Assembly (NCBI GenBank): GCA_021234155.1
Contig: JAJEKV010000057.1
Span: 5,673,821-5,737,820 of the forward strand
Direction: 5' to 3'
DNA: 64,000 bases
Source: Isoetes taiwanensis
Lineage: Eukaryota > Streptophyta > Lycopodiopsida > Isoetales > Isoetaceae
In this document: positions 13,080 to 64,000 of the stretch, in pieces
How the letters are laid out: every line of letters begins with the position of its first letter
Position numbering within the stretch: the stretch's first letter is position 1
Program-made: the position numbers and the translations under genes
The notes under the pieces: model-generated
Told to the model about the DNA's origin: nothing
The model's database searches: none
The model's input: the letters and a program-made list of their open reading frames with translations, nothing else

Positions 13080-13860
13080 TGCAGCAACATGAACAACATC
13101 TTGATTAGCTTTGCAAAAGCTAAAAAGCCATCAGACTCTTTGCCAAATTCTCTAAATGCAAGTTAAGCCACTCAGAGGGTAGACTATTTGGGGCATATTA
13201 TCTCCAGAAGGAATTGCTACAGACCAGCTAAGATAGAAGCGATAAAAGATTGGCCCATTCGGCTAATGTTTGAGAGGTCCGGAGTTTCTTGGGACTCGCG
13301 AGGATATTATCGGAAATTTGTTAAGGATTTTGCAACAATTGCCGCACCTCTTACTAATCTCACAAGGCATGACAAAATAAAGGATTGGATGGAACATTGG
13401 AAAACAAAAGTCCAAGTCGGCTTTGAAGCTCAAGGATGCCTTAACATACGCACCAGTCCTTACCTTGCCCACGATCACGAAAAGGATAAATCGGTAGCCA
13501 CCGACGCTAGTAAGATAGCTCTTGGTGGAGTTCTAATGCGGGAGGGGAGAGTTGTTGCTACGATTCAAAGAAGATGAGCGATGCGAGCAGCGATATCCTA
13601 CCCATGACCGAGGAATTCTTTGGCGGTTGTTCGTGCTCTCCGTATTTGGAGACACTACCTTCTTGGTAGAAGATTTCAGCTGCATACGGATCATCGGGGA
13701 ATCTCCGCTATTTATCCACCCGGCCAAATCTGAATCGTCGTATGAGCAGATGGATGGAATTCCTCGAGGAATATGACTTGAGATTGTATATAAACGAGGG
13801 AAGCACAATGTGGTTGCGGATGCTTTGTCACGTCATCCCTTCATAACCCGCACCCATTGT
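13080..13860 (+). pseudogene. RT connection and RNase H remnant
   Basis: The segment has GHIISRRNCYRPAKIEAIKDW (split here as GHIIS and AKIEAIKDW), matching the usual 'GHxxS..G...DP.K' block. YYRKFVKDFATIAAPLTNL and VATDASKIALGGVL follow, and the latter is the RNase H 'TDAS' block. Near 13790-13835 KRGKHNVVADALSRH is readable across frames, the end of RNase H before the integrase. Confidence 0.88.
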
Positions 13861-18876: not shown

Positions 18877-18880
18877 TGGT

Positions 18881-18958
18881 AACAAAGTTTAAATTGAAAC
18901 GCACTTATTTGCTCCAAACGCACTTCAAAAGGAATCTTTGAAAGATTCCCTAAAAAAA
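18881..18958 (+). repeat. Left terminal inverted repeat of the DNA transposon
   Basis: GTTTAAATTGAAACG and ACTTATTT match the right end. After ACTTATTT the left end has an extra 25 bp in which CAAACGCACTTC is the inverse of the matching right-end segment. A small palindrome (GGAATCTTTGAAAGATTCC) follows at 18931-18949. Confidence 0.88.
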
Positions 18959-19283
18959 GTCCATTTTGAGGGTTTGTTCGTGCCAAGTGTGACAATTTAG
19001 CTAATTTAGGCACCTTTTTTGAGGGGTTGATTGAACATAGCCTGTATGCAAAAATATGTAATAGCTATTTTCATCCTTCTAATTTGGAACAAAAAATAGC
19101 TACTTATATGAAGTGTAGCAAAAAAGGGGCAATAAAAAAAACAGCAAGGGTAGTAGAGTGACAAAGAAGTGATATATTCAAAGCTTGTGAAAATTTTACA
19201 AAATTATGAACAAAATTATCAAAAATATAGGACATTTTGACAAACCCTCATCGCCTACACTTTCTGTTCTTTACATGTTCGAG

Positions 19284-22200
19284 TCATCGGACAAACTTAC
19301 ATTTTGCAGCAATACCAGGATGCATGTCATCCTCAGACTCATTTAGTCCCTGATCCGTAGAGTCTTCATTCTCACCTTCACTCTCAAAACTGGATGTACT
19401 CGAACGATCTTCTTCCTCACTTTCTACAAGTGAGTCTTTATCATCATCTTTTTTGGCCACCTTTCTAGGTTGTTTGTCTAATCCACATGCTGACCTTATT
19501 AATGTTTGAGTGACCGCACGTAACTTATTAGCAGCAGTCAGAACAAAGTCATATGCAAGAACCTTTACTTCAGCTAGATCTATGACAGCAATGTTTGCTT
19601 TGGACTTTGCTCTCCTTCCCACTCCCTGTTTTTACCATCTCCAAACTGTAACTCCCACTGAAAGCATTGGCATCACTTGTTCGCATCCAGTGCACTTTTA
19701 ATTGAGTGGGAATTCCATCCTGTCTTGTTACCTCCAGTACTTTAGCTAGCCAGAATGGCTTCCCAGATTCATCATTATCAGCTGGGACAGCTATGAGCAT
19801 TCCTTTCTGAATCTCTGAGACTGAACCAGATACCCGAGCAACTTGTTGTGCCGTGCGTCTAGGGCCAGTGTACATGACTCTGTCATCTTCATCTGAGCTA
19901 GCCATTATCTCTACATGTTCTTCTTGATTCTCAACTTGCATAGGGAGAGTTTGCCTAGATGGCCAGTTGAATGTAACTGGTCTTCGACCTTGTAATGAAG
20001 CTTGTAACATGTCACGTTGTCGAGAAAAAAAACTGAGGCCACCATAAAGCATCTGCCTCCCCAAAGTGGTTAGAGCATGACTGAATACTTGTCTCAATAT
20101 AATCCAATGATTTGTTTGAGTCAAATGCTCTTCCCTCCTTTTTACTCTTTGTGATTTCTTTCAAGCTTTTTAGAGGCATTTGCTCTGCAGAGAGCATAGA
20201 AGTAGTATTGGGGATGGTGCAAATGAATTGAATAATACCTTTGGTCGCCAATCTTTGCAAGGATGTGGCATATTTCTTTCCTTGTAAGATGGCCTTGCCA
20301 TCTACGAGTGAGAATTTGATCTGATGCTGAAATGTAATGTTTCTCAAGGGCTCAATTGCATAGCAGCCCAATTGATCTCTCCGAAAAATCCATTCCTTGA
20401 AATCATAAGTTTCTTCCAATAACTCGATGTCTGGACGAGGATTGTAGGAATCTTGAATAACCTCAATCATTGCTGGCAGGCTGAGAGCTTTTTTTCGAGC
20501 AAGACGTTTAGAAAACCTACTGAACATCTGATCAATATGATCGTGTATATGACCAACAAGCAGGAAATCAATCTTCACCTTCTTGAAGATTTGTTTCTCA
20601 ATTAGCATGGCACAGTAAGCAAACAATGCCTGATTCTTATTTTCTCTTGTCGTGTTGTCTAGCTGAAGATATAGAACCGATGGTATATGTTCTAGATTGG
20701 AAAGAAGCTTATTCAATATTGTGATAGTGAGATTTGGATCAGCATGAATGTTTGGATAGTTCAAAAATGCCTTACAAGATAGTTTCCCATTAAATACCAT
20801 AGCACCAACAACATGCAGGTGTATGAAATCTTCTTCAGGAGCATCCTTAGGCACATTGACAAAATGTAGTAGGGTGGTCTTCTTCTGGTCCATTCCATCA
20901 ATAACAACCGATATGTAGTTGTGGTTGTTCCAGTGCTTTCTTCCTGTGTTTTGTCAATTTTCTCCTTTCCAAAGATTGTTGTTCTCTGTGCTTGTTCAGT
21001 TTCTCTTTCAATGCATCTGAAATGAAAATATGTTCAGGAAAAAACCTACCATTGAGTAGAACTTGGCAAGAGCACGTTGTGAAAGCTTATCTTTAGTGTG
21101 AAGTATCCTTGCATTTTGTCTCTGAGCTTTTAATTCAGAGCATGTAGCACAAATAGACATCCGGTGCTTTCTAGGAATAGACACGCGGGAAAACTTTTTT
21201 TTCCAGAGCACAATGAAGTAAGAGTAGCATACATGGCGTTCTCCAGCCTCAACACACATGTCCTTATAATTATTGTAGACTTCACGTTTCGTGAAGTTGT
21301 CACTAAGTGGTACATAGGGCTGTTAGGGAGTTTCTCGCATGACTCCTTAAAGAAACCTTCCATCCAGGAAACACATTAAAGGGCATGAATTCTGGATATA
21401 CTTACTGAATGGCAGTAGTCATTAATGCCTGGATTCTTGTCAAGCCTTTTCTTCAGGCGGTGAAGTCGTCTGCTGCCTAAAGCATGAATCAATTTAAAGG
21501 CTGTTTGATAGATGGTGTGGCCACCAGCTGTGTAAGTAAACCTTTCACCATAATCTGGCCTAATATTGAAGGCTAAGTAGCCCCTTTGGTCTAGCAGAGT
21601 CATTGAACTATAATTATCACGAATCAACCTCAATTTCTTTAGTCCAATCTTAATCAAACAACGTTGAAAACAACAGTGCTTTGTATGTGTTGCCCGCAAG
21701 TGAGCCTCGTCCATAAGTTTCTTTCTTCTTTGCGATGTACATGCTTTCTTGTGTAAGTTTCGCTTAAGGTTTTCACTCGCAGAAGCTTTGAATTCGAACA
21801 TAGAGTCTTGTGGCTTTGCTACGTCCTCGTCTGAGAGATCAAAATGAGGAGTTTCTTCATCTGACACGGGAGCAACAGATGGTGTACTAGTAGAAGCTGA
21901 GAGGTTTGGTATGGGCAGGTCTTGGAGGGAGCTGCTTTCCCTCTCTCTGGGAAAAAGTAGTTGAGGTTGGTGACGTAGTTGAGCAGCTCCTGAAGTGTCA
22001 TAGAATACAGGAGTTGCGTGGCGCTGACTGCTCCCACTTAGTGTAGTATCAAGTACCGAGATGGATGGAGTTGGTGTGATTTGCCTCCGGGGAGCTGGAC
22101 TATGGGAAAAGGACTAAAACGAATTGGAGGAGGGAGTCTGAGCTCGTCCTCCCTTGCTGGAGTGAAATGAATGGGTGGAGGCAAGTTTCGTTGTTCTGTG

Positions 22201-22442
22201 GGATGTGGTGGAGTAAAACGCATTGGTGGGGGCAAACGTCGTTCAGGAGCAGGCTGTGGTGGAGTAAACTGAACTGGTGGTGGAAGCCGACGAATACAAA
22301 CTTCAGGGCTGGGGCTTTGAATATCAGAGACAGAAGTTTCGTGCCTACTACCTGGTGACTTTGGAGCAGGTGTGAAAACCATTGGAGGAGGGAGCCTGCG
22401 AGCAGGACAGGGAGGCTCTGAAGCTCTTCTATCTCCAACCAT
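19284..22442 (-). pseudogene. Probable transposase with DUF7869-like RNase H-fold domain, frameshifted
   Basis: Read from the ATG at 22442 to the stop at 19284, the protein would be about 1,000 residues. The N-terminus has five copies of a proline motif (RRLPPPMVFTP, RRLPPPVQFTP, RRLPPPMRFTP, RNLPPPIHFTP, LRLPPPIRFSP). A Cys/His and Arg/Lys-rich region follows (21376-21867, HTKHCCFQRC) and then an SICATCSELK zinc-type block near 21150. The catalytic-looking core holds VVIDGMDQKKT (about 20903), YLQLDNTTRENKN (about 20675) and VGHIHDHIDQMFSRFS (about 20550), which I recall as the hallmarks of DUF7869 proteins. A C-terminal FWLAKVLEV-...-KVHW block (about 19735) resembles a Tudor/BAH-like module, and the end is acidic. 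Frame slips occur near 22095, 21315, 21015, 20930, 20025 and 19630. The one at 20025 is a run of eight A. The exon structure is unresolved. The transposase role is inferred from motifs and position. Confidence 0.75.
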
Positions 22443-23628
22443 AGTCAGCAAGTAGCGGCGGACGGTATAAATTTATACGATACAGAAGCAGAAACGTAAG
22501 CGAACGGTATAAATTTATACAGAGATGGTATAAATTTATACAGAGAAGGTGTAAGGCTAAACAGAAACAACATAAATTTATACGAAACTTACAGATATTC
22601 GTATAGGAGACGTTATGGAGAAATGCTATACGGAAAGGCACAGAACAGAGGTACTTAAGCCTAGCGACGGCCGGTCTATTTTCTATATATCGTTGCTTTC
22701 GGTCGGCGCCAAGGCCGCATCTTTATATATCTGACCCCAATTTGCTCCTCCGAACAGCTATAAGCGAATCCATACGGTCATGGCCACGTAAGTCTCTAAT
22801 CGGTACCATTCTAGTTCCGCATCTCTTTTAATCTTCTTGTTTTTGTTTTGTCTTGGGTCTATGGTATAAATTTATACCGAGTCTATGGTCCCGCGGTATA
22901 AATTTATACCGAGAGGGTTCTGCAACGGTATAAATTTATACCGCCGGCTCGACGGTATAAATTTATACTGGTTGCGAAACTCTCGAGATATAAATTTATA
23001 CCGCCGTGCTTTCGGGCGTATAAATTTATATCGTTCCAAAATCTCTTTATTTATAAATTTATACTCCCCGAGTGTTCTCAACAGAATCGGTATAAATTTA
23101 CACCGCCTCGAAAGACGAGCGGTATAAATTTATACCGTTGCAGAGCCCTCTCGGTATAAATTTACACAGAAAGATATTACAGTCGTTCAATGAAACAGTT
23201 CGTAAACACTTGCGGTATAAATTTATACGGGGATACCACTTGCGTGGTTTAAATTTAAAATAGGTGTCGAATGTCTAAAGAAATCCGGAACCATACTATT
23301 TGAACACTAGTGTTGTGTTTTAAGGTCTATTTCCAGAGAAAAAGGGGTAAAATAGCGCGAATTTAAGGTTGTTTAAGGGTTTAAGCAACTTTTCTTAGAG
23401 CTAAAGTGTTTAAAATTGTGGTAAAAAACTGTTTTTCTAACGTAAAAGGGGTTCTTTGCGCCTTTTCAGCCTCAAGCTTGTTATCAAAAGCAAGGGACAA
23501 CCATCGAAGGCACAAACGTCGAAGATGCAAAACTACGAACTGAAAGATGTGACATGGTACGTCCATAGGGGAGCAAGGGAGCGCTACCCCACTGACGCGT
23601 GGCGGATGATTACTACCCCGCCGGCGAG
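22443..23628. promoter_or_regulatory. Divergent promoter region with about 15 copies of a 16-bp palindrome
   Basis: GGTATAAATTTATACC or a one- to two-base variant occurs at about 22464, 22506, 22527, 22571, 22863, 22895, 22927, 22954, 22987, 23017, 23050, 23089, 23121, 23153 and 23214. Spacing in the right-hand cluster is mostly 27-40 bp. The spacers are unrelated to each other. The core TATAAATTTATA is a perfect palindrome and contains a TATA-box-like TATAAAT on both strands. The region separates the starts of the transposase and methyltransferase genes, so it may control both. Confidence 0.8.
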
Positions 23629-23814
23629 ATGACAAGCTTAACTGCCACAGAAAACGAAGATGAGATTCATATGAACTGCGTGAACGACGACGGGGACGTT
23701 GTGTACATTCTAAATAGCAGAATGCTTCGTATCAGCATGTGCAAGCCTAAAGATGTTCATGATTACATTGCGGATAATTACAAGCTTGGCTATGTAAGTT
23801 GATCTTTGTGGCTT

Positions 23815-23832
23815 TACCGTATAAATTTATAT
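23815..23832. repeat. Single palindrome copy in the first methyltransferase intron
   Basis: CGTATAAATTTATATCG lies inside the 70-base intron 23794-23863. Three of the five introns of this gene thus carry the motif. Confidence 0.7.
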
Positions 23833-24893
23833 CGTCAGCTTCCTAATTTAACCTGCACTATAGGACATAGTGGACATCCTTTCATGTGTGACACTTTGTG
23901 ACGAGAAGGTTATGACCAAAGGTCTGTGGTACCCACGTTCTAAGGATGAGGTGGAGAAAGATAGTGAACCGAAAGAGGAATAAGAAGAGGAAGAGGAGGA
24001 AGAGGTGGTGACGAGAGGAAAGGGTAAGAGGCAAGCATTGGTAGTAGACACACAGCCCAAAAAAAAGTCAAGGACCACAAAGGCTTTGACTATAGAGGAG
24101 TCAGCAGAAGCGCTTCAAAAGGCCCCTGGGGCAGATATTGTATTGCGGCCCTCAGACAAGTCGAGTGCTATTTTGAAAAGGGTTAATGTGAGACCAAGCT
24201 GCTAAAGCAAACAATTTCTTTGACACTGAGCACAATTAAGAGGCCACCAAAGAATGAAGATGTGGTCAGAGTGCTTCAGGTGAGAAAGTTATACGCGGCA
24301 CATGTGGCTATCTTAAAGCAAAGAATGAGAAGGAATCCACATGCACATGTGTCACCACTCGTTGTCATGGTAGACAGAAGTCAGGTCAACCAACTAAAAG
24401 ATTATAGGAAGGCAGACTTCGAAGATTATACGTATTATGTTCTTGGTGGCACACATAGTTATAAAGCAAGAAAAGAACTATCAAAAGAAGAAAGCCGAAA
24501 CGAGGTCTGGAAGAGTGTGGAAGCGCACATTTATGTGGGGCTAACAGATGAAGAGGCTAAGGTCATTGCCATGAGCCATAATCTCGACAATGATTTCAGA
24601 TTAAAGATGAGCCTTATAGACAAAATCCGATTCATGCACCGAGAGTATGTGGAGTTCAAACAAATGCATGGAGAGGACTTTAAAAAACAAAAGAACAAGC
24701 TCCAAGAACTTGGGAAGCCTGTGTGACAGAGTGTTGTCTAAGTTATGATTCAGATAAGAAGCCCATAATGGCTGTGAAGCAGTATGACAACTACTTCCAG
24801 CTTGCTTTCAGAGACAGTCAAGTAAGTACAACATTTAAATGAGTCTTTCAATAGTATGTTTATCGTGGTTTAAACTGTGTAGAAGCATTGAGC

Positions 24894-25070
24894 TGTATAA
24901 ATATATACCAACCATGGAAGGGTGCTACTGTATAAATTTATACCGAGCCCTGGCTCGGTATAAATTTATAATTTATACCGGTCCAGGGCTCGGTATAAAT
25001 TTATACCGAGCCAGGGCACGGTATAAATTTATACAGTGGCACCCTTCCATGGTTGGTATAAATTTATACC
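24894..25070. repeat. Long inverted repeat in a methyltransferase-gene intron
   Basis: Two arms of about 80 bp pair with few mismatches. The left arm carries ACCAACCATGGAAGGGTGC, then CACTG/TACTG and the palindrome, then GAGCCCTGGCTCGG. The right arm is its inverse. Five copies of the TATAAATTTATA palindrome sit inside, so palindromes are nested in a larger palindrome. The intron (24822-25130) would fold into a strong hairpin in RNA. Confidence 0.85.
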
Positions 25071-26141
25071 ATGACATAAAACTCTGGTACGCTCTTCAAC
25101 ACTAAAGTACTTGACTTTGACCTTTAACAGGTGTGGGATCTTCAAGAAATAATTTTTTGCATGTTCGAGGATGGTGAACTTAAAGAGCAAACTAGCTCCA
25201 CTGGAAAAAAACCGAAAAAAGTAGTGAGGCAAAGCAAAAAAACATGAGCATTGTGCTTTGGACGCAACTACAGGGTCTCAAGAGCAAGGAAATTATTGTG
25301 CGCCTTTTAGAAAATGTTGTGGCCAAAGAATTCACTTTAAATGAAATGGCTAAGGAGGCTAAGACGTAAGCCTCATTTGCTTTGTCGTGTACTTTTTTTA
25401 TTCACTTAGAATTACAATCTTTTTCTTCTTCCAGTCAGAAGGACATTGTCACCTGTCAGTCCGAGTTGATGAAGCAACTAAACCTAGAAAACTGGGAGGA
25501 GTGCAAGCTTCTTTACCCAACTTGTACGACAGACAACACAATCAGAGAGCACGCGGTTAACTTCAGTGGCTGGGTGAGTTTTGCAGAAAACATGTTTTGT
25601 CTTCCAGCCTTTTGTCACACCGTTCTCTTTACGTAACAAGAAGAAAGGTACGCAATGGGCTTTTGAACCTCGGTTCAGAGGGGCCAAAGAGGAAAGGAAG
25701 AGACAAGGCCATTGAGCGAGGTGAAAAGAAGTCGGCTCTAGCGCTTTTGACACTAGCTACTTAAAGATTCACAACGCTTGGGTGGGGCCGGCTTTGTATA
25801 GGGTTGTCTGGGGGTGATTGCACCCGGTGCCGGGGACGCTTGTGGAAAAGCAAAACTTCACATTGTGCATAGCCGATATTCCTTATGCCTTTAGAATTAA
25901 AGATAGCGCCTTCGATGATGAGGCTTTCACGCATTCGCAAGTTCGTGCTTTTTTGGACGACCTCAAGGAAGTCACGCTATCTGCAAACTGGAGGGTAATT
26001 ATTTTTCATTCCGACCTGTAGACCATGTCCGTGCTCAAACCTATAGGAGCGGTCTGCAACGCCGGCTTCGAGACCTGTATTTGGTAAGCCTTTCATACGT
26101 TTAAAGCTCTTCTTTTTACTGTAACTCCACGGTATAATTCT

Positions 26142-26286
26142 TTCCACAGTTGCCTTGCTGTATAAATTTATACGGATGGAGCTGGTATAAATTTATACAG
26201 CATGGCAACCGTGGTATAAATTTATACAGCAAGGCAACCGTCGTATAAATTTATACAGCAAGGCAACCGTGGTATAAATTTATACC
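26142..26286 (+). repeat. Tandem palindrome units in the last methyltransferase intron
   Basis: Palindromes lie at about 26158, 26183, 26212, 26242 and 26270. The spacer CAGCAAGGCAACCGT (or CAGCATGGCAACCGT) recurs three times, making a roughly 30-bp direct repeat. The inverse of the spacer (GTTGCCTTGCTG) stands at 26142-26158, so the block also has an inverted component. The intron is 26084-26337. Confidence 0.85.
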
Positions 26287-27452
26287 GCTACACTACTAGG
26301 ATTACTTATTTTCATTGTTTTCTTTCTGCTAATTTAGAATTACTATATTGACTGGCAGGCTGAAGACGAACGTCAAAGGACATGGTGGTGGTCCGCACTT
26401 AGTGAGCTGCTTCGAGCATTTCCACATAGGTTATTACAGCGCAGACACCAAAAAAGCCATGGTACATTTCAATACGCAGAATGAGAAGACGCCTCCATGC
26501 AATGCTTTCCAGTTCCCTGCTGTCTTGCAAAAGTTGAGAGACCCACAGAGACAAGGCGTTGTGGTCCCATTACCAGAAGTCCCATTACAGTGGTTTTGTC
26601 GCCCGGGTGACTGGATTTTGGACGCATTCTCTGGAACAGGCACCACAGCAGTTTGCGCCCTTAAGCAAGGGCGTAATATTGTTTCAGTTGATATAGAACC
26701 AGGCAAAATAAGTTTCATCGGGATCAGGATAAGCTCCTGTGAATCGTTTCCTGATGAAAATGAGGAACTGGGAGCAAAAAATGGTGCTGGGGATGTTAAA
26801 GGCACTTACACAGAAATCCAGCCTCCTATTACGGGAAGAAAAGATGAGGAGGTGGAGTTCGTGGACCTGGAGCCTGTGGAGCCAGAGCCCGCCAAACCGC
26901 CTGTTCCAATAGCATTAGAATCAGAAGCAGGCATCTCTGGCTTTGTGGCCTCACAAGAGACAGATCAAAAGGGGTACGAGAGTCTCGTGGACTGGGAAGA
27001 GCCTCTTCTCGTATGAATTGATACAGATAGATTGAAATGTCAATATATCATTGCATGGTTGTTTGAGTGCCTCTCTTGTTTTATTTTAAACTATGTACTA
27101 AGAATTGTAATACATATTTATGGTAATTTGTAAACTGAAAGCTTTGTGTCTTCAACAATGTTTAATTAGAACAACTCTTTCTTGCTCCATGATTTCAAAC
27201 TCTTTGTCTTTTTTACGTTTGATTTTGGTAAGTGTGCAAAAAGACAAACTGTATTTGCTTCTATTTTCGTCAATAAGAACTTGTTCAGTTTCCAAAAGTA
27301 GTGTTTTTCTCCTCAAAACAAGCATTTTTTTTGCCTGCTTTCTTTTTAAAATGAAATAGCTTTAAAAATGTTGCTTTTTCTGTGGTATTCCGAACGCTAG
27401 GTGCTCAACAATCTATTTTGCTCCCTATTTTGTCTGTTTTTTCAAGTTTTTA

Positions 27453-27516
27453 ATTTTTTTAAAGGAATCTTTCAAACGCACTTCTTAAATAAGTACGTTT
27501 CATTTTAAACCTTGTT
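27453..27516 (-). repeat. Right terminal inverted repeat of the DNA transposon
   Basis: On the minus strand this reads AACAAGGTTTAAAATGAAAC, then GTACTTATTT, then GAAAGATTCC and an A-run. It pairs with 18881-18958. TGGT follows immediately at 27517. Confidence 0.88.
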
Positions 27517-30500
27517 TGGTGTCTTGCCCTTGCTTTAGGCCATAAATCTTGCTTTTATTTTAACCACTTGCTTCTGGAGCAGAGCAGTTGGGACTCCACA
27601 ATTGGGTCATCATTTGGAGCAGAGCAGAGCAGTTGCAACTCCATCAATCAGGTCATCGTGAGTTAGTACAGTAATATGGTAAGCTTCTCCGAACAACTAT
27701 TGCGGCTTTTGATATCAATTTAGTAGAGAAAAACAGTTGATATATTTTCAGAAGAAAGAAGGTTTTAAAGATGTTGCAATAAACTTAGCCTGTTTTCTCT
27801 ATTTTTGAATGTCGATTTAAATTATGTTGTTACGTCAGATTTTGGCACCACCATATTCTTCCACTTCCAAAATGCACTCAATACTGCACTAGAACTGTGA
27901 GCACGGGCACACATATAAATTCTAAATCATTAAGATTTTATTATGATGAACAGGGAACTAAGTTCTGAGGCTGTTATTCTATTTATCATAGGATTAAATC
28001 CTACATTGTAATGAACTTACTTTGTATATTCTATAGCATGACATAGATAACAAATTCTTTTTCTATTGCTTTCTTTGATTAGATAAGTACACCGATGCTA
28101 TTATGAGTGGCATTCAGATTCATCAAAGCTAACTTGGCACTTTTGATGACTGCTTCCAGTTGTGAGAGCCCAAATAGGAATGGACAGGAGCTTCAATAAG
28201 TTAGAGCTTCCAGTAAAATGTTTTTTGCAACAATACCATCTCTCTTTCATAGCCACTGTGGTATCAAAGTCCTCCTTAGATTCACAGTTTTGGAGCCAAT
28301 TGATTCTTAGCTTGAGATTTGAAGAGAAGCCATAGGACATGGGTACATTACCATAGTTTTTCTGGACTGGAGCCTTTCTTCCCGAATAATATGTCAACTA
28401 GAACGGCTTTTGTTTTGAAGCTTGGACTTCTTCTCTTTTGCCTCTGTTCTGAGAATGGGATAGTGCAGGCATACGCTATGGTAACTTTCAGTTAATGAAG
28501 GAAGCATGTCAATTGCCCCGCATATATCTGCATGTATTCAGATATTTTCGTCCAAACTATTCAAAGATAACTTCATTGCCAAGACTGTGCGATTGCTATA
28601 CCAACGTGAAAGAAACTACTGCATATGCTTGAAATAGTGGAGTCCAGATTAAGCAGAACCCTTATACATACATAATAGGATTTTGGAGGCCAATAGCTCT
28701 GCACTCAAATGTTCTTATAACCATCGCATATAAGTCATGTGATACTGTTGTAGCATTTGTAGCTTTATATTTGATGTCATATAATTTTAGCATATCTAGG
28801 AACTCATTTTATTTCATTATTGACAAGATCAATATTTCGATGTGATTACAAATATAAGAGGTCTGGCAGTAGCACTTCTTGCTAATAAGTTCTATTGTGG
28901 ATTGACCCCGTTGGTGCTATTGGCTTAGCTGTCTACACGACATTTAATTGGTCAAGGGTTGTTTTTGAAAACGCAGGTATGCATGTTTTCTCCTGCTAAT
29001 GCCTCTAAGGTGCGTGCGTGTTAGTTATAGAAAGAGCCTTGCAAAGGAAAATAACCTTCACAAGCGACAATGTTGTTTGTTTCCCCTACCTTCAATTCCT
29101 TATTTTCTTATACAAGTTTCGTGCTGGTGCATCATAGAGTTAGAGCTGTTCCAGTTACCAAGGCATTTCTTCTTTTGCGATCTCAATTAGATCATAGCCA
29201 TTTTCATCCATAATCTGCAATGTGATTCTCTATTATCTACTTACTCATTGTTCTCCAAAACTACGTCTCAGTCTAGAATTTGGAGATGGAAGAAAATGGA
29301 TTATGCATTTTTGCTCACAGTGGAAATGAGAAGGAAAGAATGGATAAGGGTTTTTTAAACTTTCCATTTGGCATAGGGAATGCTTTGTCTATTGCTCTAC
29401 CAAAATTCTAGTTTATCTACTTCAAAGCACTTTGGAAACGGTGAGACAATGTACTCTGCTATTTATGTTCTTGGTGGTGTTGCAAACAAGCTGTGACTTT
29501 TATTGTTGCAACCTTATATCTTAATATCACATGCTTCCGAACATCTGCAAGTTTCATCTGCCTTTTCAGATCCTAGCAAGGATATCATTTTAGCATCTTT
29601 TTTCATCCTCTCTGCCGTAATTGCCTAAATGTTCCATTTTTCTAAGCTTCTTGAGCGTAAATACTGATAGAGCAGATTTCAAAGCTCCCCAGCGCAGAAG
29701 TGGAAATGGATGGATCAGGATATGAAATGCCAAGGTATGTTGCATAATCAACCCCATTCCAACTTTTTTCCCTTCCAATCAACGATGTCAAGAAGTATTG
29801 AGCTGACCTTTGAAGTTAAGCAACGTGCAGCATTCTGAAACCAAACATTATGTTGCATTGCTGATGTGGCATATGCTGTTTTGCAGGTGTGAGATGGGAT
29901 GACAAAAGTCTAGAGTTCAGAATCTATGGAAACATCTATTTGCACATATACATTGTGAAAGCTAATCTTCATTTATGCTGGAGATCTTGCATCATGCTCT
30001 GCGCTTCAAAGTTTGTTATATATAGTGGAAAATTGTTCTTTTTTTCTTCATACGCAAGAACAAGGATCAAAAGCTGTTCATTAATTCTGAAATCATTTAG
30101 AACAGCTTACAGAGTATTTCCTTTACATCGAATCAACAGCTACATGAATTAAATTGTAAGTTTTTTTCTTCTGACCGCGCAACTTCAAATGATAAGATAC
30201 GACATGAATTGGTTTTCTAAGTAAGTTAATTGATTCTGTAAGCATTTCTTCAGTAAAGTAAGCGGTGATAGGACATTAAAGAAAAAGCCTGCTGCGTTAG
30301 AATCTCTAGCTCCTTACCGATCTAAATTGATGAGTATTGTGAGGCATATGCCTTTTTGTTGATTATCTACGTTTATTTTGTTCACAAGAAAAAAGGCAAG
30401 CCAAGGTTTTGTCAGGTGAACCAGTAATAAAGACAAAACTTTAGTATGGGGTGCAGATAAATCTGTGTTCTACCTAATGAGGAACTATCACATCTTAATG

Positions 30501-38924: not shown

Positions 38925-39122
38925 GCCAAGGCATTAGCCCCACAACGGCCGGGCACCCGTTTACTAGTTCCTACTTACAATACTTACAATCTTTAAATGG
39001 CGAAAAACACCAAAACCACCAAAAAGGGCGAAAATGAACCCTTAAACCCTATGGAAGTCTGCTAGTGCAAAATTTGTGCGATAGCTTCAATTCTCATTCT
39101 GACGGCAGTGCTGGTTGCGGGG

Positions 39123-42100
39123 ATGCTTGGGCATTCACTATATAGTGGTTTTACCTGCATTAGTTCGCAGCAGGCTTGCCAGGTACTGTCGTTTTATCCT
39201 TTAATTCATTCTACGCATCTCTTCAGTAACAATGCAGCTATCCAGGTTGAGGCTTCTGCTAGATTAGGATCCGGATTATTAAATTTGGCATGCATCAATC
39301 GAACTAGTCGAAAAATATTTACAGATTGTTGGAGCATTGTACCTCTAGCCTCAGATAGCATGGTAGAAGCCTCAGGCTCTTCTGGCAGTCCTTTAATTAA
39401 TTCAGATGAAAATTTTGGATGGTCAAGTGTCAGGGAAAATAATGTGGACAATTCTCAGGGTCTACAGCTTTCGTTATCAAGTTCATTACGGGGTCAAGAA
39501 GATGAATTTACAGTGGCACGTATAGAACAAACTGCAGCTGAGCCAACGTTTCTGGAAGAGAATTTTGGGCAGACCGATGTTTCAGATATAAGCATGGATG
39601 GTCCCAGTGGTGGAGGTAACATTGCACTGCAACAATTACGCTTAAATAGACCTTGTATGGAGGAAATAGGAATTAAAGAACCTAATAAAGCAGCCACTGG
39701 TTCTCTTATATCGTTACTAAAAGGTAATATAGAGGGTGCTGGCAGAGGCAGAAATAACAGCACACAGTGGAAAAACTTCACAGATGATAAAGATGGCTTT
39801 GAGGAGACAGAACTTGAATACTATATGCCAAAGGTAGGGGATCGTGTGATGGGCATTGTTGTATCTGGAACTGAAAACAAGCTTGACATTGAAATAGGGG
39901 CTCACAGGCTAGGTTTAATGATCCAGAAAGAAGCAATGCCACTCGATAAATCTGCCCCAGAAACACTTAAATGGGAATCCCCAGGGAATGTTTTTGCTGC
40001 CTCTAATATTCCAAATACTGGTCAAGCGAGACTAGTTGGAAGCCGTAATGCTGCATCCATGGAACATCAACCTGGACAATTTTTGAATGTCGGGACTGTT
40101 CTTTATGGACAGGTTATTGGCATAACCGACAGTGGTAGGGCGGTTCTGTCTGCACGGGAAGTTGCACGGCAGATTGCATGGCAGCGCATAAAACAGGTAA
40201 ATATTGAATATCTTTGTTTCAGGTAACACATTCTGGGCCAAACTATCTCGTCTGCATGCAGATCCGGGATATGGAAGAGATTATTGAAGTCGTCATTGAA
40301 AGCTGCAACCAAGGAGGCTTAATATGCACATTTGAGGTCTTATTGAAATTCTATATGTTATTATCGCGTTTTCTTGAATCATTAATAACCAATTTTGTTC
40401 CAAGAAAGTGGAAGTAAATTGGGAGAGCTATTAAATGGATCTTCATATCTAGTTCAAATGCTGCTGATTGTTAATATATTTGCTTTGTTTAAAACTAGTG
40501 CGTGTTTGCAGGGAATTCGAGCATTTCTACCTTTGAAATTTATACAGAACTCATTCAGCCCAAATTTCTCCTTGAAGGATTACGTAAGTCTTTTGGTTTT
40601 GATTACTTAAGCTTTTATAATGTACAGTTTAAATGATTACATGGGTTTTTATAGCGTCCTTGCTACATGATGAAAAGTGGATTCTGTTAGTTTTGGTATT
40701 ATAAAATGATAGTTGCAGGGGGGATTGTTTTTTCTTTGTGGCTGTGGGCAGGGCTCAAGGAAAACTTGCATGCAGGAGGTGTGCACTTGTCACCTCTTGT
40801 TGCTTTCATTTGAGCTTGAACGTATTCAAGTCTACAACATGTCGAGTTCTTTATGACTGCTTGGACTCACTGGTAGTGAAGAGCAGCCTAAGTCTTTCCT
40901 AGGAATTGCATAATCTGGAAATTGTGAGCACCTCCTTACGTTTAAGCTGATGAGATCGCTCTTCATCATGTTGTACGAGCTTATTGATGTGTTTGTTGAA
41001 AGTAAGGGGGCAGTTCATACACGGGGAGTTATAAGGAGATATGTGCTCCTCAAGCTATTTGCACTTTGCGTGCTGAAGTTTCATACCTTGTGTGTCAGTA
41101 TTTGATGTCTGAAAGCAGCAGTCATTAATAAGAATTGAAAGATTTAAACACTTTGCTTTAAGGTACCTTGTCTATATTTATTCCATATGTAGATGATCAG
41201 GTCCACCATATGATATGCCCTCCCATGATAAGATGGCAGAACTTCATGCACTGTGCTAAAGCAATTTTGAAAGATGGTCAAGATCAAAACCTAATCTTTC
41301 CATGCTTAGAAGTCTAATAAAAATACATATGAGATTTTCATGTTTGATGGTATAAGTGTGTAAGTTCGTGAAAATATGTTTATAGTGCTAATAGGAAGTA
41401 CTGAATTTTGACTTTGAAACCACATTTACTACCATTGGGCATACATTACGTTACCAGAATTCTTTGTCTTCGAGGACAAATCAGCAGGATGTGGAAAGGT
41501 GCTCTAATTACATAAATGCACAGAATGTTCATGCAGCCTTGAAGTTCCTGGTGTGGGGCGGGGGATAACCTTTCCCTCTCTCTCCTCCTTATTATGGCAG
41601 AAAATTGAAATCTCTTGGATTATGTCAGAAATTTGCATGGGTACAAAAAGAAATTTCTCCATGCGGAACTGGGTGTAAGCTTTCAACATTATATGAAAGG
41701 GGCACGATCTCAATGGAATGTGCATTATGTCTTTTCTGACAAAGCGAGGCAGGCTGAAGGCTATGGATCAGCTAGCTTTGAATAAAACCTTGGATAATGG
41801 CTGGGACAAAGAGGGATTGAGCTGGATCTGTATATGAGGGCTTACCATGGAGGACCTAATCCTTAATAAAAATAGGATTCAGGATTAGGTCAGACAGAAG
41901 TGGTAGGTACACTAAAAATGTGGAATATAGAGAATTGAGTAAATCCTGCTTTATGCAAAATAAAAAACCTGAAGAAATGCATACCAGAAACAGAGGCATA
42001 GCTTTTTCGACATGGCGGCTTTTAATGTGGGTAGTATCGTGTTAGATTTGTGTAGCTTTAAAGAGATTAAATAGATGATACAAATATATATAATAATAGC

Positions 42101-47240: not shown

Positions 47241-47989
47241 TTGGCTAGTGGGATTTTGTCGGATGAGGGACTCTGTATTTTAACAAATTAGCTAAAATGA
47301 ATTCTCAAAATCGGCTTACGAGCAATATCTAAAGTCTTATTAACTAGGATTTGGAGTGAGGAGAGGGCCAAAAATGAACAAGCAAAGGAATGGAGCATTC
47401 TTTGCACTTCCCAACATCGCGTAAGAGCAGGTTGTTTTAGGGATTTTGTAAAATCCTAGCCGTCGAAGCAAAATTTAGAAGATCAAATGGCACGATGCTT
47501 CAGGAATGAGTATGTACGTAATGTTGTTTAGTCACTTTGGCTTAACCAAATGAACTTTACATCTTGAACCACCATAGCCTAACCAACTGGCCAATTAACC
47601 AACTGGGCTTTACATCCGGAACTAGCCTTGCCTAACCAATTGGCCAAAACATCAGGGAAATCTGCCCCACAAGCACATCACTGATGTTGTAATTTTCCTA
47701 GCCAACGAAGTAAAATTCTGAAGATCTAATGGCATGAATGAGTATGGATAACTTTCCTTAACCATCCAGGCCTAAGTAACTGGCTATAACATCCAGATAT
47801 TTACAAGAAATCCATCCCACCTTCCAAATGCTGTTGTTAAGAAATGCCCCACAAGCATGTCACTAAGAGCTATCTCCATGGGTCCGTTGCAATCTCTTCC
47901 ACTAGAACTATAATTGTCCTCGAGCATCATGCTTTTGCTGCGGACACAATCAACACCCTACTTCCCTCTCGCAGAGGCAACTTGGCCAC

Positions 47990-58118: not shown

Positions 58119-58680
58119 CACTACAAGGGATAGTCGACCTTCAACGACGTCCACAGGTTGAAGAACGACGTCTAATCGTCTATGAACGACGACAACGTCG
58201 TTTGACGACTTTGACATCATTCAACGGCATCATAGCGTCGTTCATCGACGCCACACGGAGCTGATGTGTCGCGTCGGCCGGCGTGGCATGGTGCTGTTGC
58301 CAAGCTGGCAGGCCTGCGTGTCAAGACACGTCAGCTAGACGTCATTTAACGACGTCTTACAGCTGATGTGTCCACCATGCCTGCGTGGCATGGTGCTGTT
58401 GCCAAGCTGGCAGGCCTGCGTGACAAGACACGTCACCTAGCCATCATTCAACGACATCGCACAGAGCTGACGTGTCCACCATGCCTGCGTGGCATGATGC
58501 TATTGCCAAGCTGGCAGGCCTGCGTGACAAGACACGTCAGCTAGACGTCGTTCAACGACGTGTAGTACGAAGATTTTAACACGTCAGCTTGACGTGTTAA
58601 ACGACGTGGCATACGAAAATTTTAACACGTCAGCTTGAGTCGTTAAACGACGTGCGTACGAAAATTTTAAGATAAAAACA
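58119..58680 (+). repeat. CACTA-like terminus with AACGACGTC subterminal repeats
   Basis: CACTACAAGGGATAG at 58119 matches the typical CACTACAAGAAA-type end of CACTA transposons. The following 550 bp are packed with ACGACGTC, GTCGTTCAACGAC and related words in both orientations. About 2.5 copies of a roughly 115-bp unit (with CTGCGTGGCATG and GCCAAGCTGGCAGGCCTGCG) occur at 58265-58550. The opposite terminus was not found in the window. The same words recur at 59750-59785 and 62435-62470. Confidence 0.6.
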
Positions 58681-59730: not shown

Positions 59731-60671
59731 CAGCTACATAGTGGACGCCACGTGTACGACGTCGTTGAACGACGTCATGTACGTGGCTGCCACGTCAGCA
59801 ACGGCGCTGGCAATGCCGCGCTCGATAATGTTGTTTAGTCACTTTGGCTTAACCAAATGAACTTTACATCTTGAACCATCATAGCCTAACCAACTGGCCA
59901 ATTAACCAACTGGGCTTTACATCCGGAACTAGCCTTGCCTAACCAATTGGCCAAAACATCAGGGAAATCTATCCCACCCTCCGAATGATTGTGTCAACAA
60001 ATCCCCACAAGCACATCACTGATGTTATAATTTCCTAGCCGACGAAGGAAATTCTGAAGATCTAATGGCATGAATGAGTATGGATAACTTTCCTTAACCA
60101 CCCAGGCCTAAGTAACTGGCTATAACATCCAGATATTTACAAGAAATCCATCCCACCTTCCAAATGCTGCTGTTAAGAAATGCCCCACAAGCATGTCACT
60201 AAGAGCTATCTCCATGGGTCCGTTGCATTAGAAGTATAATTGTCCTCGAGCATCATGCTTTTGCTGCGGACACAATCAACACCGTACTTCCCCTCCACAA
60301 GCATATCACTAAGATATATCTCCACGGGACCCTACCAACACCGTACTTCCACTCCACAAGCATTTCACTAAGATCTATCTCTACGGGGGGACTGTTGTAA
60401 TCTCTTCCACTAAAACTATGATCGTACCATCCTCAAGCATCATGCAACTACAGAGCCGTACTTCTCCATCCACGGTGGGTCTATGTGTCATCTGACATCC
60501 ATGTCTTCCATGCCCCCACAAGAACTCGAACTCAAGATCTGCTCCAATACCAAACTCTAATACCAAAAGTATCATTCTTTAACCTACAGGCCTAACCAAC
60601 TAGTCAAAACATTGGATGTCTATGGGAAATCCATCCCACCCTCTTATGGTGTTGTTAAGAAACACCCCAAA
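59731..60671. repeat. Junction with AACGACGTC words plus partial copy D of the ~3.2-kb repeat
   Basis: The first 90 bp (GTACGACGTCGTTGAACGAC) resemble the CACTA-like subterminal region. From 59829 (TTGTTTAGTCACTTTGGC) to 60671 the sequence matches the end of unit A/B and the start of the next unit, but lacks the coding-like middle. An almost identical copy is at 62413-63356. Confidence 0.8.
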
Positions 60672-62001: not shown

Positions 62002-64000
62002 TGTCGTGGAGGGCGTGAGTGTTTCTTTCTTTTGCAAAACCGACATTGTAACTTGCTCCCTAGGATAATTTCGTCATTTTGGACGACTTGGCGAGGTCAA
62101 TTTGCCATTCCGGAGCCTCTCCAGTGCCCGAACGACAAAACACTGCGGTTTCTACAAGGCCGACCTCAGGACGCTCCGCGGTTTGACAAGTTCTCCCGGA
62201 CCGATCTGGAATCTTTTGGGCCTTCCCGAAGAGGGGCCCCTGAACGGAGGATCCAACGGTCGGATAGGGGAACCGGGCTCCGGGAGGGTGGTCGTTAGCG
62301 TGCGGCCCCCGGGGGAGCGCTGCCAGGAAGGGCTGCCTCGGGAACTTTTTTGGATCCTGCCTCCTGGGGCCCGGACTCTCCCCTCTTGTGATGGAGCCCT
62401 GCAAGGTCCTCATGTCAGCTACATAGTGGACGCCACGTGTACGACGTCGTTGAACGACGTCATGTACGTGGCTGCCACGTCAGCAACGGCGCTGGCAATG
62501 CCGCGCTCGATAATGTTGTTTAGTCACTTTGGCTTAACCAAATGAACTTTACATCTTGAACCATCATAGCCTAACCAACTGGCCAATTAACCAACTGGGC
62601 TTTACATCCGGAACTAGCCTTGCCTAACCAATTGGCCAAAACATCAGGGAAATCTATCCCACCCTCCGAATGATTGTGTCAACAAATCCCCACAAGCACA
62701 TCACTGATGTTATAATTTCCTAGCCGACGAAGGAAATTCTGAAGATCTAATGGCATGAATGAGTATGGATAACTTTCCTTAACCACCCAGGCCTAAGTAA
62801 CTGGCTATAACATCCAGATATTTACAAGAAATCCATCCCACCTTCCAAATGCTGCTGTTAAGAAATGCCCCACAAGCATGTCACTAAGAGCTATCTCCAT
62901 GGGTCCGTTGCATTAGAAGTATAATTGTCCTCGAGCATCATGCTTTTGCTGCGGACACAATCAACACCGTACTTCCCCTCCACAAGCATATCACTAAGAT
63001 ATATCTCCACGGGACCCTACCAACACCGTACTTCCACTCCACAAGCATTTCACTAAGATCTATCTCTACGGGGGGACTGTTGTAATCTCTTCCACTAAAA
63101 CTATGATCGTACCATCCTCAAGCATCATGCAACTACAGAGCCGTACTTCTCCATCCACGGTGGGTCTATGTGTCATCTGACATCCATGTCTTCCATGCCC
63201 CCACAAGAACTCGAACTCAAGATCTGCTCCAATACCAAACTCTAATACCAAAAGTATCATTCTTTAACCTACAGGCCTAACCAACTAGTCAAAACATTGG
63301 ATGTCTATGGGAAATCCATCCCACCCTCTTATGGTGTTGTTAAGAAACACCCCAAAATGGATGCCGGATACTGTCGTGGAGGGCGTGAGTGTTTCTTTCT
63401 TTTGCAAAACCGACCTTGTAACTTGCGCCCTAGGGTAATTTCGCCATTCCGGACGACTTGGCGAGGTCGATTTGCCATTCCGGAGCCTCCCTGGTGCCCG
63501 AACGACAAAACACTGCGGTTTCTACAAGGCAGACTGCAGGACGCTCCGCGGTTTGACAAGTTCTCCCGGACCGATCTGGAATCTTTTGGGCCTTCCCGAA
63601 GAGGGGCCCCTGAACGGAGGATTCAACGGTCGAATAGGGGAACCGGGCTCCGGGAGGGTGGTCCTTGGCGTGCGGCCCCCCGGGGGAGCGCTGCCAGGAC
63701 GGCTGCCTCATGAACTTTTTTGGATCCTGCCTCCTGGGGCCCGGACTCTCCCCTCTTGTGATGGAGCCCTGCAAGGTCCTGGCCTCATTTGACTTGGGGA
63801 AGGGTGCTAGCTCGATTGCCCCGCAACGGGCTGCCCCGACCGTTCTAATGCTAATTCTTTGACCTAGACCTTCTCCAAAAATTCCAAAAATTGGGCTGTG
63901 TGCTGGAGATGAATTAGGAATCCATCTGGCAAAAAATCAGAATTTATTCTCGTACAATGCATTAATTACGAATTTATGAGTGTCTTGCCCCTGCAAAGGC
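62002..64000. repeat. Second copy of the 2.7-kb tandem duplication (R - junction/D - R - tail)
   Basis: The order repeat R (62002-62412), junction plus partial unit (62413-63356), R again (63357-63780) and tail (63787-64000) repeats 59301-62001 without the MITE. Sequence identity is very high, so the duplication is recent compared with the differences among R copies. The right end lies at or beyond the window edge. Confidence 0.85.

Follow-up and report, generated by a model that had tools for sequence, protein, structure and literature searches.

A DNA transposon of Isoetes taiwanensis carrying its own ParB-like/DNA methyltransferase gene, and palindromes whose core differs between its subfamilies

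Organization of the locus

The window (the whole stretch analysed: 64,000 nucleotides of contig JAJEKV010000057.1, Isoetes taiwanensis assembly GCA_021234155.1) contained an element of 8636 bp (positions 18881-27516) which enclosed two divergent genes: a putative transposase gene, and a gene for a ParB-like protein joined to a beta-class DNA methyltransferase (Table 1). Of the 30 terminal bases, 27 matched between the two ends once the right one was reverse-complemented (alignment score 45; the best of 3000 random pairs from the window scored 26), which bore out the inverted ends and the TGGT direct repeats described in the first-pass annotation of this DNA. That the element is a DNA transposon with its own ParB-like/methyltransferase gene, as proposed there, is strongly supported: both genes were present, and sibling copies showed the same kind of ends, 4-bp duplications and a linkage of the two genes far above chance. 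The gene pair of the first-pass annotation thus stood; the disruption of both genes and the arrays of palindromes had been overlooked.

The transposase gene was covered by tblastn with the homologues P0007 and P0008 from position 21738 to 19594, and the minus-strand DUF7869 core predicted at first was matched by its family profile (Table 1). The structural match of the transposase model fell under the caution line of the comparison tool (homologue fold, weak match), the transposase profile gave nothing better than E 0.4 against the PDB by sequence, and DUF7869 was not named in the literature searched.

The second gene matched phrog_1033 in its ParB-like part (24187-24726, E 2.9e-5) and N6_N4_Mtase in its methyltransferase part (PF01555, 26333-27016, E 1.2e-9), the latter part also matching phrog_498 and phrog_67. 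Hidden Markov model (HMM) searches thus found both the transposase and the methyltransferase family, with weaker results for structure: besides the weak transposase match, the model of P0001 had a mean predicted local distance difference test (pLDDT) of 50.4, and its methyltransferase half was poor, so that nothing was deduced from the fold of that half. The ParB fold was present in the N-terminal part of the homologue model (structure comparison). Motif IV (ADIPYAF, around 25875) preceded motif I (DAFSGTGTT, around 26620), which is the beta order and the permuted arrangement first read from the sequence; motif IV reads D[ILA]PY instead of DPPY, and mostly AD[LI]PYGF in the siblings.

Both genes were disrupted in the window copy. 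Homologues aligned (tblastn) through frame changes at about 24672-24702, 25205, 20027-20061 and 21304-21307, and because no intron fits at these four places the genes are broken. An in-frame TAG (26019-26021) occupied a position where relatives have Gln (by eye). By eye, the methyltransferase gene needed about eight coding pieces and not six; the six-exon model originally given is only approximate, the gene being broken.

Table 1. Features of the window element, with their positions in the window.
Feature	Position	Strand	Basis or comment
Target-site duplication TGGT, left (4 bp)	18877..18880		mirrored on right flank
Left terminal inverted repeat, starts AACAAAGTT	18881..18910	+	27/30 identity to right end
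Transposase gene, two homologue-confirmed frame changes	19287..22442	-	limits judged by eye on the open frames
C-terminal BAH-like domain of transposase (approximate)	19594..19850	-	mapped via P0007 residues 693-809
DUF7869 core	20012..20953	-	PF25273, E 1.5e-51; RNase H/integrase-like arrangement in P0007 model
4 palindromes GTATAAATTTATAC (<=2 mismatches), transposase leader	22465..22583		spacing 42/21/42
11 palindromes, shared promoter/first intron of methyltransferase gene	22864..23228		
ParB-like/beta-class DNA methyltransferase gene, broken	23525..27013	+	about 8 coding pieces, by eye
1 palindrome, intronic	23819..23832		
ParB-like N-terminal domain, box YVLGGTHSYKAR	24190..24720	+	phrog_1033
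6 palindromes, intronic; inverted repeat of 76 nt, 96%	24895..25069		
Segment matching helices after ParB-like domain in homologue model	25244..25368	+	weak likeness to parS-binding part
Methyltransferase motif IV, FTLCIADIPYAFRI	25857..25898	+	motif search
5 palindromes, intronic, in 29-bp tandem units	26160..26285		
Methyltransferase motif I, GDWILDAFSGTGTTAVCA	26606..26659	+	PF01555, motif search
1 degenerate palindrome (2 mismatches) across stop codon	27011..27024		may be chance
Right terminal inverted repeat, minus-strand start AACAAGGTT	27487..27516	-	end alignment, sibling ends
Target-site duplication TGGT, right (4 bp)	27517..27520		mirrored on left flank

Sibling copies and linkage of the two genes

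Sibling copies were sought in the same genome (1,658,258,908 bases). The first look gave 1442 methyltransferase-family candidates and 9901 DUF7869 candidates, 150 of each were scored, and 9.9 kb were fetched around 20 of the 150 methyltransferase matches, among the top-scoring ones. Fifteen of these 20 loci showed transposase homology upstream of the methyltransferase and on the opposite strand (at an odd position in L025), and pairwise comparison of the siblings revealed sharp common borders. Both ends were located in ten siblings (7475-8817 bp long); AACA started every end, and the left ends began with AACAAAGTT, AACAAGATT or AACAGAGTT. Perfect 4-bp duplications flanked nine of these ten: AAGC, GTGA, CATT, AAAC, GGTT, TTAA, CTAA, TAAG and TAGC. 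Nine of the remaining ten siblings had one end and L011 had none. Copies with conserved ends, expected if the first reading was correct, were thus present in the genome, and these copies ruled out a single-copy artefact.

Between the two lists of top 150 (fetched loci included), 23 gene pairs lay within 12 kb of each other, against 0.33 expected; 21 were divergent, and 17 of those were spaced 5.0-6.1 kb. The transposase and methyltransferase genes move together as one mobile unit.

Twenty-four loci (L011-L034) were scanned for the conserved motifs: 23 showed the motif I pattern, 21 showed motif IV and 18 the ParB box. The motif I exon yielded 20 stop-free sequences (190 pairs), and 53 pairs had a synonymous divergence (dS) of 0.05-1.5, a filter passed by no pair involving the window copy or L034. 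The ratio of nonsynonymous to synonymous divergence (dN/dS) had a median of 0.05 in these 53 pairs and was below 0.7 in all of them, which showed, as far as a biased sample allows, purifying selection on the sibling methyltransferase exons with the catalytic motifs kept.

Many methyltransferase gene models were also seen in Adiantum nelumboides (P0015-P0051), several of them with Asp protease or retroelement domains; these multi-domain models are probably annotation chimeras of transposon copies.

Palindromes in the window copy, its siblings and the genome

Arrays of GTAT-N6-ATAC palindromes, with the core AAATTT, occupied the noncoding parts of the window element. Twenty-eight sites of GTATAAATTTATAC were counted at up to 2 mismatches (18 exact), 27 of them outside the by-eye coding model. 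The 12-base core TATAAATTTATA was found 23 times exactly in the element (about 0.001 expected) and at no other place in the 64 kb; outside the element, the window lacked GTAT-N6-ATAC altogether. In the genome as a whole GTATAAATTTATAC occurred 12,556 times, against 17 for its reversed control.

The siblings carried a different core. GTATTCCGGAATAC (core TCCGGA) was present in all 20, with 4-19 sites per locus (up to 2 mismatches); the ten two-ended siblings held 127 sites inside and none in 18,951 bp outside (window flanks included). The AAATTT type was missing from 19 of the 20, and L031-L033 were also of the TCCGGA type. L034 had the cores GAATTC (five sites), AAATTT, GAATTT, AAATTC and TAATTT (one each), and its protein was 61-64% identical to that of the window copy in the ParB-like and both methyltransferase segments, but 47-50% between them; judged by its sites and its protein, L034 is a mixed-core copy related to the window type. 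These five core types lay together at 215-3424 of L034, which gives the appearance of a core undergoing change. The palindrome core thus differs between subfamilies, and this difference suggests that the subfamilies may each be marking their own DNA.

Over L011-L034, GTAT-N6-ATAC stood out with 197 occurrences; the median for the other inverted pairs of the 4-6-4 form was 4, the next commonest being TTTT (76) and AAAA (74). TCCGGA-type sites (up to 1 mismatch) were outside the coding alignments in 180 of 190 cases, these alignments spanning 80,615 of 222,424 bp. A further locus, L035, chosen solely by its palindrome cluster, proved to be another, incomplete copy with 29 sites and 80-87% identity to the window element over the three main alignments. 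The commonest altered cores in L011-L034, TCCAGA (31) and TCTGGA (28), look like CpG deamination of TCCGGA.

The spacing was 41-42 bp in 86 of 136 cases; tandem origin accounts for part of this, and no helical phasing is therefore claimed. The inverted repeat among the intronic sites at 24895-25069 had a 23-nt loop between its complementary arms; its transcript might fold into a hairpin and so be a source of small RNAs.

Possible role of the palindromes

On balance it is probable, from the sequence features and by analogy with the VANC proteins of VANDAL transposons, that these copies form a large cut-and-paste transposon family with sequence-addressed self-marking by its ParB-methyltransferase. 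The DUF7869 transposase (integrase-like core, BAH-like tail) would move the element and leave the 4-bp duplications. The ParB-like part would recognise the GTAT-N6-ATAC palindromes as ParB does parS, gathering the methyltransferase on copies of its own family, and N6-methyladenine or N4-methylcytosine (4mC) would be deposited at the element's own sites; the mark might keep the promoter and introns open, or regulate transposase expression. ParB proteins bind palindromic 16-bp parS sites, which fits palindrome recognition by the ParB-like part. Modification of the element's own DNA had been put forward in the first-pass annotation, and it is made likelier by the presence of the palindrome arrays.

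If the enzyme marks its own palindromes, plants would own a natural DNA-modification system which is addressed by sequence and acquires new targets within one genome. Evasion or steering of silencing by mobile elements would become testable, a source of marks other than 5-methylcytosine (5mC) in plants would be given, and natural pairs of ParB-like proteins and palindromes would be available for studies of DNA-binding specificity.

Several observations weigh against self-marking by a mobile gene pair. The window copy is dead. Five of the 20 fetched siblings had no transposase inside the 9.9 kb (in one of them, L017, a DUF7869 match lay 10.1 kb away), so that independent movement of the two genes, named at the outset as the finding that would speak against a single element, was contradicted by most copies but not by all; the flanks of L019 did not match (CACG/CCTG). 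Eight transposase relatives were found, none from Adiantum, despite the abundant Adiantum methyltransferases, and a look for transposase pieces in the Adiantum methyltransferase proteins was negative. The loci used for dN/dS were taken from the top of the HMM ranking, and stop-containing stretches were omitted, a sampling which pushes the ratio down and favours intact motifs. Alignments of ParB and Noc with the homologue model reached residues 371-377, but with a root-mean-square deviation of about 8-9 (7.9-8.9), a weak likeness. The CTP (cytidine triphosphate) box, which is Arg-rich in ParB (GERRxRA), is replaced by GGxHSxxA (GG[TNSC]HS in the window, in the box-keeping relatives and in 18 of 24 loci, by eye), and the ParB-like part may therefore not act as a CTP clamp. 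The cores are not strictly exclusive: L021 held one degenerate AAATTT-type site, and three TCCGGA-type sites lay in L035 past its alignable part. Since the altered cores match CpG decay, host methylation probably reaches the TCCGGA sites. The arrays, finally, come partly from tandem and inverted duplication, a point taken up below.

Three other explanations of the palindromes were weighed. They might serve expression control as binding sites for the transposase or for a transcription factor of the host, with the methyltransferase acting elsewhere or unspecifically; the four sites in the transposase leader and the eleven near the divergent promoter are in keeping with such a role, which we nevertheless consider unlikely. 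The outermost noncoding sites of the window copy keep distances of 3584 bp (left end) and 1231 bp (right end), farther from the ends than usual transposase sites; 23 of the 28 sites stand in introns of the methyltransferase gene or where its promoter and first intron lie; and a common host factor would leave the core differences between subfamilies unexplained. It is rather improbable that the enzyme marks the copies for silencing or self-restraint, sparing the host, instead of opposing silencing: N4CMT lays 4mC on transposons and supports silencing in bdelloid rotifers, as described in the available part of PMC8885841, but an element-borne writer kept under selection is more easily explained by a gain for the element, and noncoding target arrays recall the anti-silencing VANC system. 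That the palindromes are passive, functionless minisatellites made by replication slippage and inverted duplication is very improbable: tandem and inverted duplications are visible, and adjacent 42-bp units share 60% of their spacer bases, but the palindrome columns have 1.4-2.0 bits against 0.3 or less in most flanking columns (up to about 1 in the adjoining bases), the 54 half-flanks of 27 sites (the site at 27011 dropped) stand in 39 contexts, and the GTAT/ATAC half-sites are constant across different cores.

Sequence-addressed self-marking might also take a more specific form, a two-part address, which we put forward tentatively and with some doubt. The ParB-like part would read GTAT/ATAC, the methyltransferase would modify the core, and subfamilies would switch core and specificity jointly. 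The cores are restriction-type palindromes, RAATTY (AAATTT/GAATTC) in one branch and TCCGGA in the other, and the mixed-core L034 would be in the middle of a switch. Each subfamily would have a private epigenetic mark, distinct from those of its competitors and of the host, and the family would represent, in a eukaryote and on a transposon, the counterpart of a modification system, with thousands of sites as its own target array.

Other features of the window

No Rfam match was obtained in the window at gathering level. Retroelement remains with a reverse transcriptase match (PF00078) and a weak match to reverse transcriptase RNase H were located at 600-1501 and 13167-13574. Near-identical two-copy tandem repeats of 53 bp (47542-47647, 59849-59954 and 62534-62639) point to one dispersed repeat family, and two adjoining tandem arrays with units of 104 bp and 46 bp were found at 58277-58670. 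Outside 18877-27520, the palindrome TCGCTTAAGCGA was present four times, mainly in the right part of the window, and the 12-mer AATCGCTTAAGC nine times to the right of the element. A long open frame (39066-40223) had no Pfam match; by eye, we take it to resemble a green-plant plastid S1-type RNA-binding protein.

Comparison with known systems

The ParB-like gene shares the ParB fold with bacterial ParB, Noc and KorB, and its methyltransferase part matches phage methyltransferases (phrog_498, phrog_67); it differs from the bacterial and phage proteins in its eukaryotic introns, its linkage to a transposon and the altered residues of the CTP box (by eye). A phage origin was considered and rejected: when phages were searched by tblastn with P0001, the 40 records obtained stayed below 60% identity, and in none did the match reach 80% of the query. 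Two of these regions were opened (Leozinho and Octadecabacter) and contained short methyltransferases of about 230-245 codons; no close parent among phages came to light, and a pattern search of viral contigs gave no tblastn-confirmed relative of either protein.

Among eukaryotic transposons, target duplications are 4 bp long in Sola-1 elements and 9 bp long in the MuDR-type VANDAL elements, and the fungal TET/JBP transposons belong to different transposase lineages. To our knowledge, VANC is neither a methyltransferase nor a ParB protein. The 4-bp duplication of the window family agrees with the Sola length, which is also that of Sola2 (PMC3627910, in the part available).

The closest description, Sola1-1_Ec32 (PMC12477816, available in part), is likewise a DNA transposon with an accessory gene, encoding a ParB-like domain and an N4/N6 DNA methyltransferase, on the strand opposite to the transposase. 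It comes from a brown alga and is 21.5 kb long, whereas the window family is from a green plant and is 7.5-8.8 kb long; the available portion of the description has no palindrome array, unlike the window family. Binding and modification of the carrier transposon by such proteins is proposed in the same source, which also cites green and red algal cases. No land-plant ParB-methyltransferase element and no palindrome arrays of this kind were named in the titles and opening abstract lines of the literature searched, which left subscription papers mostly outside. As algal cases are published and no land-plant one was found, novelty is limited to the land-plant, palindrome-bearing variant: algal ParB-methyltransferase transposons are already known, and the land-plant family with core-switching palindromes is new.

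Retrotransposons of Symbiodinium (a dinoflagellate) and of charophytes also carry a DNA methyltransferase and may mark their own DNA, but theirs are host-derived enzymes that make 5mC (C5), in contrast to the bacterial-type amino-methyltransferase of a DNA transposon found here (PMC5890265, as far as available). The fungal TET/JBP elements resemble the window family as DNA transposons with a DNA-modification enzyme, which is a dioxygenase and not a methyltransferase (PMC12730594, also seen in excerpt).

The VANDAL/VANC system of Arabidopsis differs in several respects, according to the accessible sections of its descriptions: VANDAL elements are MuDR-type (PMC12730594), unlike the DUF7869 transposase and 4-bp duplications of the window family, the VANC21 and VANC6 motifs are non-palindromic, and demethylation by VANC has been demonstrated, whereas the window family is known here from its sequence. 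VANC21 binds motifs arrayed in the introns and intergenic parts of VANDAL21, where they multiply via tandem repeats, and the motifs of VANDAL6 are different (PMC5735166). Both systems thus combine an element-encoded accessory protein with arrays of short noncoding motifs which differ between subfamilies (PMC5735166, PMC10398659).

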